Shown: positions 26,779 to 27,885 of the stretch, piece by piece
How the letters are laid out: each line of letters opens with the position of its first letter
How positions within the stretch are numbered: position 1 is the first letter of the stretch
NCBI GenBank assembly: GCA_945877575.1
Contig: CAMDUE010000015.1
Span: forward strand, 1-64,000
Origin: Chitinophaga pinensis
GTDB lineage: Bacteria; Bacteroidota; Bacteroidia; NS11-12g; UBA955
Length of the DNA stretch: 64,000 bases
Direction: 5' to 3'
Notes under the pieces: generated by a model
What the model saw: the letters and a program-made list of their open reading frames with translations, nothing else
Database searches by the model: none
What the model was told of the DNA's origin: nothing
Translations under genes and position numbers: made by a program

Positions 26779-27693
26779 ATGATTCCCAAAGGCGTCTGGA
26801 TGATGCTCATCGCCAGTTTGGCATTTGGGTTCATGAACGTTACCGTAAAAATGATTTCGGGCATGCATGTGTCCGAAATCGTTTTTTTTAGGGCCCTTGT
26901 ACAAATTCTTATTTCTGCCGTTTTCCTCATCCAGCAGAAACAATCGCCCTGGGGAAACAACCCTAGATTGCTCATTCTTCGAGGCTTTTTTGGTTCTATG
27001 GGACTGCTTTGCTACTTCTATTCTTTGCAGCTCATGCCGCTTTCAAATGCCTTGGTAATTCATTATCTATCGCCCATTTTCACCACCGTTCTAGCTCTTT
27101 GGCTTGGCGATGAAAAAGTTCATTCCAGGCTATGGTTGTTCTTCGGAGTTACTTTCTTTGGGGTGTTGATGGTCAATCTACTCACATCAAAAGTTTCTCA
27201 TGAATTGCTCAATGGCACACTTCAGTTTCACCACATTGCTGGTTCGATTACTCCTTTAGGACTTGCAGCTGCCTTCGGTGGAGCAGTTTTTTCAGCATTC
27301 GCTTACAACACCATAAGACGACTCAAGGGCATTGAAAATCCCAACGTTGTGGTACTTTATTTTCCCCTCGTTACCATTCCCATTTCCCTGATTGCTCCCA
27401 TTACCGGTCTATCTACTTGGTTTATACCCACTGCATCGCAGTGGATATGGTTGCTTTTAACCGGGATTTTCACCCAAATCGGACAATTCTTCATGACCCG
27501 TGCCTACCAAGAGTCAAACACCGGATTGGTGTCGAGTATCAGTTACGCAGGTATCATTTGGGGCACCTTTTTCAGCATCACTCTGTTCCAAGAAACTTAC
27601 AACTTCTATCAATTTGCGGGGATGTTCTTGGTTTTATTGGGTATGGTATTGAATGTTGTAAATAGGGATAAGTCCATAGTCAGTAGTCGGTAG
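26779..27693 (+). CDS. EamA/DMT-family transporter
   Basis: The 304-residue protein has about ten hydrophobic helices in two EamA repeats (about 5-135 and 155-290), the usual drug/metabolite transporter layout. The substrate is unknown. Its last residues and the stop codon (about 27671-27693) are encoded by the first units of the heptamer repeat array, so the native C-terminus has been replaced or extended by repeat sequence. It follows mdh after 9 bp and is probably co-transcribed. Confidence 0.85.
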   Translation: MIPKGVWMMLIASLAFGFMNVTVKMISGMHVSEIVFFRALVQILISAVFLIQQKQSPWGNNPRLLILRGFFGSMGLLCYFYSLQLMPLSNALVIHYLSPIFTTVLALWLGDEKVHSRLWLFFGVTFFGVLMVNLLTSKVSHELLNGTLQFHHIAGSITPLGLAAAFGGAVFSAFAYNTIRRLKGIENPNVVVLYFPLVTIPISLIAPITGLSTWFIPTASQWIWLLLTGIFTQIGQFFMTRAYQESNTGLVSSISYAGIIWGTFFSITLFQETYNFYQFAGMFLVLLGMVLNVVNRDKSIVSSR

Positions 27694-27885
27694 TCGGTGG
27701 TCGGTGGTCGGTGGTCGGTGGTCCATAGTCCATAGTCCATAGTCCATAGTCTGTAGTCAGTAGTCTGAAACCTGGTACCCGAATCCCGAATCCCGGCACC
27801 CGATACCCGGTACCCGATACCCGGTACCCGGTACCCGGTACCCGGTACCCGGGACCCGGTACTTGGTACCCGCTACCAACTACCG
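27671..27885. repeat. heptanucleotide repeat array 1
   Basis: About 215 bp is almost entirely 7-bp units whose sequence drifts along the array: first AGTCGGT/GGTCGGT, then AGTCCAT, then CCCGATA/CCCGGTA (many perfect GGTACC palindromes). It sits between convergent genes and supplies the stop region of both the EamA transporter and the GlmU-like gene. No hairpin-plus-T terminator is visible, so the array occupies the place of one. Confidence 0.85.

Follow-up and report, generated by a model that had tools for sequence, protein, structure and literature searches.

A tract of 7-bp units lies between two genes whose stop codons face each other, and the question raised by this locus is whether such a tract is a simple repeat tolerated in a permissive gap or an element with a task of its own. 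The window, meaning the whole 64,000-nucleotide stretch of DNA that was analysed, is part of contig C15 of the 2.5-Mb genome G000, whose relatives are Bacteroidia. We know of no settled cause for the abundance of heptamer arrays in bacteria.

The heptamer array and the two gene ends

The features of the window on which the argument rests are the following:

26779-27693, plus strand: EamA-family transporter (PF00892, E 1.5e-29)
27671-27884, no strand: whole heptamer array, one segment by lag-7 self-match with a single continuous 7-bp phase
27677-27765, plus strand: G-rich block of TAGTCGG and TAGTCCA units (TRGTCNR family), 12.7 copies (Tandem Repeats Finder)
27792-27877, plus strand: C-rich block of CCCGGTA units (ACCYGNN family), 12.3 copies (Tandem Repeats Finder)
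27880-29106, minus strand: GlmU-like sugar nucleotidyltransferase (PF13562, E 2.8e-37)
44747-45185, no strand: array 2, with CTAGAGA, CCGAAAC and GGTACC-type units (Tandem Repeats Finder, lag-7 scan, orthologue alignment)

The heptamer array at 27671-27884 is real, and Tandem Repeats Finder and lag-7 scans place its head-to-tail 7-nt units well above chance, as expected of a heptanucleotide simple-sequence repeat. Read in sevens, it passes from AGTCTGA through AACCTGG to TACCCGA with its phase unbroken, G-rich AGTCNNT units coming first and in-phase, C-rich units of the ACCCGGT type following. It occupies the whole gap between the convergent EamA and GlmU-like genes, and its C-rich block presents GGG every 7 bp on the minus strand. 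The earlier note on this DNA had described units that change along a constant 7-bp period, a description confirmed by the lag-7 scan and by the reading in sevens. It had also tied the array by unit family to array 2, which indeed carries CCGGTACC-type units together with approximately 44 copies of CTAGAGA; this link was correct but understated, the window array being one member of a genome-wide population.

As had further been proposed, the array supplies the 3' ends of both flanking genes. The EamA protein ends in NRDK-SIVSSR-stop, and the codons of SIVSSR (27673-27690) and the TAG that follows them (27691-27693) are all repeat-encoded, whereas the GlmU-like protein ends in EAY-GLR-stop, with GLR and TAG (27880-27891, stop at 27880-27882) derived from the array edge; six and three residues, respectively, and both stops are thus contributed by the repeat. 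The gene calls were computed with a hexamer model and are uncurated, EamA being called short (27169-27693) with its stop unaffected. A 15-row tree of GlmU-like proteins joins G000 and the species G011 as sisters with full support, and the sister pair shows arrays reshaping protein C-termini. In G011 the EamA orthologue ends in GFGKR and the GlmU-like orthologue in ATFGVG, immediately before an array of its own. Relatives lacking the array have different GlmU-like tails, mostly longer and often with an RxWE-like motif, and their EamA tails differ too; the earlier note had named identical C-terminal residues in array-free orthologues as the finding that would tell against it, and none was encountered. 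The two sisters stand among G009, G004, G002 and G001 (moderate support), whose tails are longer and often hold the RxWE-like motif, and a separate group formed by G006, G010 and G013 has neither that motif nor an array at this place, so that loss of the GlmU-like tail needs no array.

Arrays across G000 and its sister species

The two unit families of the window array recur throughout G000. Four tandem TRGTCNR units gave 214 matches versus 7 for the reversed pattern, and four tandem ACCYGNN units 281 versus 22; among 57 genomes comprising G000 and its relatives, the former is present only in G000, G011 and G004 and the latter only in G000, G011 and G051. A class-wide search with a unit pattern matched 34 of 395 genomes, with 17 rows (own count) matching the reversed control, so the specificity of the pattern at this level is moderate; at 30 loci which it yielded, the arrays mostly have a simple make-up with a single unit. 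In another Bacteroidia genome (L153, locus 980-1663), short TGGTCTA runs were seen embedded in a larger tandem repeat (>100 bp).

A lag self-match scan of 462 kb of G000 at periods 4 to 21 reached the threshold at 7, 14 and 21 only, in a sample that gives no array density because 20 of its 21 stretches were chosen between known arrays. A set of 69 merged G000 arrays was collected mostly via the TRGTCNR and ACCYGNN patterns, which biases the shares of unit families within it; two 'inside' and two 'edge' rows were left out of the distance counts, leaving 65 usable arrays. Of these 65, 31 lie between convergent genes, whereas 55 of the 394 gene pairs of the sampled sequence are convergent (Fisher p 5e-9); the median share of the gap taken up by the array is 94% across the 31 convergent gaps. 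On stop sides, the median distance between array and gene is 1 bp (n=89), with 65 sides within 15 bp and 37 overlapping the gene, whereas on start sides it is 54 bp (n=41), with 5 within 15 bp (Mann-Whitney p 2e-9). Composition also follows an order: G-type units precede C-type units in 27/27 G000 arrays holding both, the G-rich half comes first in 58 of all 69 arrays and in 47 of the 53 that are at least 100 bp long, and 26 of 29 long G011 arrays run from G-rich to C-rich, although these are not independent trials because G000 arrays may share ancestry. The arms of the 27 arrays are unlike in 20 cases (12 rcC then rcA, 8 A then C) and like in 7 (Fisher p 0.02).

Positions 1-57311 of the window are collinear with contig C1 of G011 at an identity of about 82-93%. 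At the place of the window array, G011 carries (CGGTGAT)17 and CCGACAA, and at the place of array 2 it carries TCTCAGC/GGTCAGC and CCAAAGA. Units at the first place are related between the sisters, CGGTGGT of G000 being one base from CGGTGAT of G011, and nowhere else in G000 does the G011-type pattern CGGYNRT occur. Within contigs C1, C3 and C6 of G011 (854 kb), a heptamer array is found at 10 of the 14 testable sites orthologous to G000 arrays, C3 and C6 having been picked in the knowledge that they contain arrays; C1 alone gives 9 of 12. A site was testable when both flanks were found; six arrays with single-flank matches or rearrangement were excluded, and the remaining G000 arrays had no match within these three contigs. 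Judged by eye, the two species use different units at all but one of the 10 shared sites; one array, L126:12784, has TTGGTCT units in both species at different copy number. The place at L088 is only roughly equivalent, because the G011 gap there measures 779 bp. The other four sites are empty in G011, with gaps of -184, 60, -4 and 3 bp. Across the window and six more collinear stretches (L107-L110, L122 and L126), arrays lie at the same four places in both species and nowhere else in either, the weakest of the four (L126:7648) passing only at a lowered threshold. The 854 kb of G011 hold 40 merged period-7 arrays, compared with 6 segments in total at 15 non-multiple periods.

Units are common to many loci. 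Among these 40 G011 arrays, from three whole contigs, an identical tandem unit is found in 299 of 780 array pairs, whereas per-array permutation of unit positions yields 16 on average and never more than 29. The ACCGATC class, whose rotations include CGGTGAT, is represented in 19 of these arrays. Between the sisters, matches to four tandem TRGTCNR units number 214 in G000 and 14 in G011, and those to four tandem CGGYNRT units 2 and 186, part of the 186 being general repeat richness since the reversed CGGYNRT control scores 48 in G011. Unit order is not shared between unlinked loci among the 69 G000 arrays, segmental duplication aside. A 28-mer made of four different units is common to one pair only, and this pair belongs to a segmental duplication (2.1 kb, 92% identity; L075, G000:C5:40110-47310) that carries the array start. 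Copying of arrays between loci was set aside, this sole pair being explained by the duplication, but fast local turnover could have erased older copying, which may thus have occurred.

Probable slippage and its alternatives

The arrays most likely arise by slippage in steps of 7 nt and are tolerated where they stand, behind stop codons; the window array itself is probably a heptanucleotide simple-sequence repeat that such slippage lengthened in the gap between the facing stops, where growth is tolerated. Slippage would expand the array within this gap, and units would be gained, lost and replaced quickly, so that a position could persist by descent while its unit sequence changes. TAG is part of the TRGTC units, and a period of 7 bp brings it into each of the three frames in turn; the array therefore caps the EamA frame wherever it begins, and growth into the gene end would cost little. 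The period, the phase, the placement at stop codons, the kept positions with changed units and the empty sites are observed; that slippage drives the process and that the arrays have no specific function is inferred. With independent seeds, slippage would be expected to give unrelated units at each locus, against which the unit sharing in G011 (299/780) speaks, and plain slippage does not predict the order from G-rich to C-rich (27/27 and 47/53 in G000; 26/29 in G011).

It is possible, if unlikely, that the array is instead a bidirectional 3'-end element which ends or protects both transcripts via RNA structure, a G-quadruplex or polymerase pausing. The placement at stop codons and the excess of convergent pairs would suit such an element, folding of the window array is more stable than that of its dinucleotide shuffles (z -2.2 on the plus and -4.6 on the minus strand), and the median folding z over 88 strands is -2.3 (12 shuffles each). 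For Xanthomonas, transcript starts or ends are reported to fall in G4-forming heptamer repeats at a higher frequency than in controls (PMC4692102). However, arrays with swapped halves fold about equally (-0.337 vs -0.342 kcal/mol per nt), and arms within one array pair worse than arms from different arrays (means of -14.3 vs -17.0; 52 arrays of 100-450 bp), 98% of 5000 permutations being at least as stable as the real arm pairings. A hairpin of matched arms was rejected on this evidence, and the order from G-rich to C-rich does not serve a hairpin, since swapped halves fold alike and same-array arms pair worse. A weaker complementarity of arms exists at the class level (-14.2 vs -10.6 with right-arm unit positions permuted; 1 of 100 permutations equal). 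Both window arrays carry a G3-type G-quadruplex motif on the minus strand, but neither of their G011 orthologues does, and such motifs occur in 49 of 69 G000 arrays versus 2 of 40 G011 arrays. The two matches to an intrinsic-terminator pattern (stem plus T-run) in 26400-29400, at 27269 and 29097, both lie outside the array, which holds no terminator-like site, and convergent genes in G011 and other relatives manage without an array.

More doubtful is a binding array for a sequence-specific factor acting in nucleoid organisation, recombination or segregation, which would set the unit family of the genome and change between species. This would account for G011 loci sharing units far above the permuted control, and for unit families being switched between the sisters at kept positions, yet the factor is hypothetical. 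Furthermore, the length, number and units of arrays differ widely from locus to locus, 4 of the 14 sites are empty in G011, and most relatives in the genus are devoid of the TRGTCNR or ACCYGNN families. Marginally less probable again is a trans-acting determinant setting one genome-wide heptamer vocabulary that is swapped between the sisters, in a satellite-like concerted turnover; if this were true, positions behind stop codons would be kept and the words rewritten genome-wide.

A contingency locus, in which unit number would switch the EamA and GlmU-like C-termini via frame shift, is very improbable. The frame does shift with a 7-bp unit, and the repeat does encode the last residues; the earlier note had argued that each unit gained or lost shifts the frame at the C-termini, but computed translations contradict this. 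EamA is unchanged by 1, 2, 3, 5 or 10 extra units within the array, because its stop spans the third and fourth unit. At the 5' edge, gains of 1 to 6 units alter two EamA residues at equal length and losses of 1 to 3 units make the protein 7 to 14 residues longer; the GlmU-like protein is unchanged by an edge gain of 1 to 6 units or the loss of one, and the loss of 2 or 3 units adds 62 or 34 residues. Interior changes are therefore silent for EamA, edge changes touch short tails that are not conserved among relatives, and frame effects are small, with no meaningful part of either protein altered as phase variation would entail.

It is scarcely credible that a RAYT/Y1 transposase spread the arrays as a mobile or REP-like element: REP elements occur in many copies behind genes, where many of these arrays also sit, but PF01797 has no match in G000 (the control search was positive in 5 of 14 known genomes), which largely refutes a RAYT-driven element, unlinked loci share no unit order, and Rfam has no match in 25000-46000 of the window. 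An assembly artefact deserves equally little credence: contig C2 ends inside a (GACTAGA)33 array (L060, G000:C2:270450-270679), which shows that arrays interrupt the assembly, with some copies lost or shortened, and unit numbers may still be misassembled, but the independently assembled G011 has arrays with other units at 10 of 14 orthologous sites, which a shared assembly error would not yield.

Known heptamer repeats and further observations

Among the long simple repeats of many bacteria, heptamer arrays are reported to be the most frequent, and they form the most abundant long SSR class in most repeat-rich prokaryote genomes; a slippage mechanism linked to a polymerase contact of 7 nt has been put forward for them (Mrazek et al. 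2007, as summarised in PMC4679880). That work is a survey, and the summary leaves stop-codon placement and unit turnover between sister species untreated. Arrays of heptamers that sit at stop codons, have a G-rich sense strand and keep their positions are of a kind already known from Xanthomonas and Nostoc (Rehm et al. 2015, PMC4692102). The heptameric, G-rich repeats GGGAATC of Xanthomonas and GGGGAYT of Nostoc resemble the G000 arrays in having 7-nt units, in lying near or over stop codons (in G000, within 15 bp on 65 of 89 stop sides) and in being G-rich on the sense strand behind the gene. Convergent G-rich pairs are also found there, 70 in one Xanthomonas and 75 in the other, and 83% of repeat positions are common to the two species. 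In the same account, however, GGGAATC serves as the unit in both Xanthomonas species and convergent genes make up just 16%, whereas the present arrays have diverse units that differ between the sisters at kept positions, two arms that usually differ, and G3 tracts that are not kept. Neither GGGAATC nor GGGGAYT is among the G000 array units, which are TRGTCNR, ACCYGNN and others.

TAACTGA heptamer repeats have been described in Beggiatoaceae, Cyanobacteria and five Bacteroidetes (PMC4679880). According to that source, these are likewise intergenic 7-nt direct repeats, with long arrays in some Bacteroidetes and shorter, repeat-free gaps in close relatives; in the main genome described, they lie mostly just upstream of start codons and have one dominant unit, unlike the G000 arrays, which stand at a median of 54 bp from starts. 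In the P6b stem-loop of the Nostoc trnL intron, the 7-nt classes TDNGATT and NNTGAGT replace each other at a fixed place (PMC4476775); as presented there, this concerns one intron stem with paired arms, whereas G000 has many loci with unmatched arms. Genome-wide replacement of units at kept positions, combined with a vocabulary common to loci, was undescribed in the open-access literature searched, where no paper was found for 7 bp tandem repeats in Flavobacteri. Because positions persist while units change, some sites are empty and loci have units in common, the sister pair constitutes a natural experiment on local slippage versus a genome-wide determinant.

Several minor observations concern the wider chromosome. 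DnaA lies at G000:C5:55711, with arrays 10 kb off. Approximately 280 kb are without listed arrays in both sisters (G000:C1 104-382 kb, G011:C1 48-330 kb) and are apparently collinear, three sampled 20-kb stretches aligning; other regions carry arrays every few kb. Between 33500 and 44700 of the window, identity to G011 is about 91-99% (84% in one 500-bp bin) compared with about 70-92% around it, resembling a recent exchange; this block ends on the right at array 2 (44747), whereas no array marks its left border. Collinearity with G011 ends in 57312-64000, where a 13-bp GGCACA-containing repeat occurs twice, at 60045-60073 and 61540-61567.
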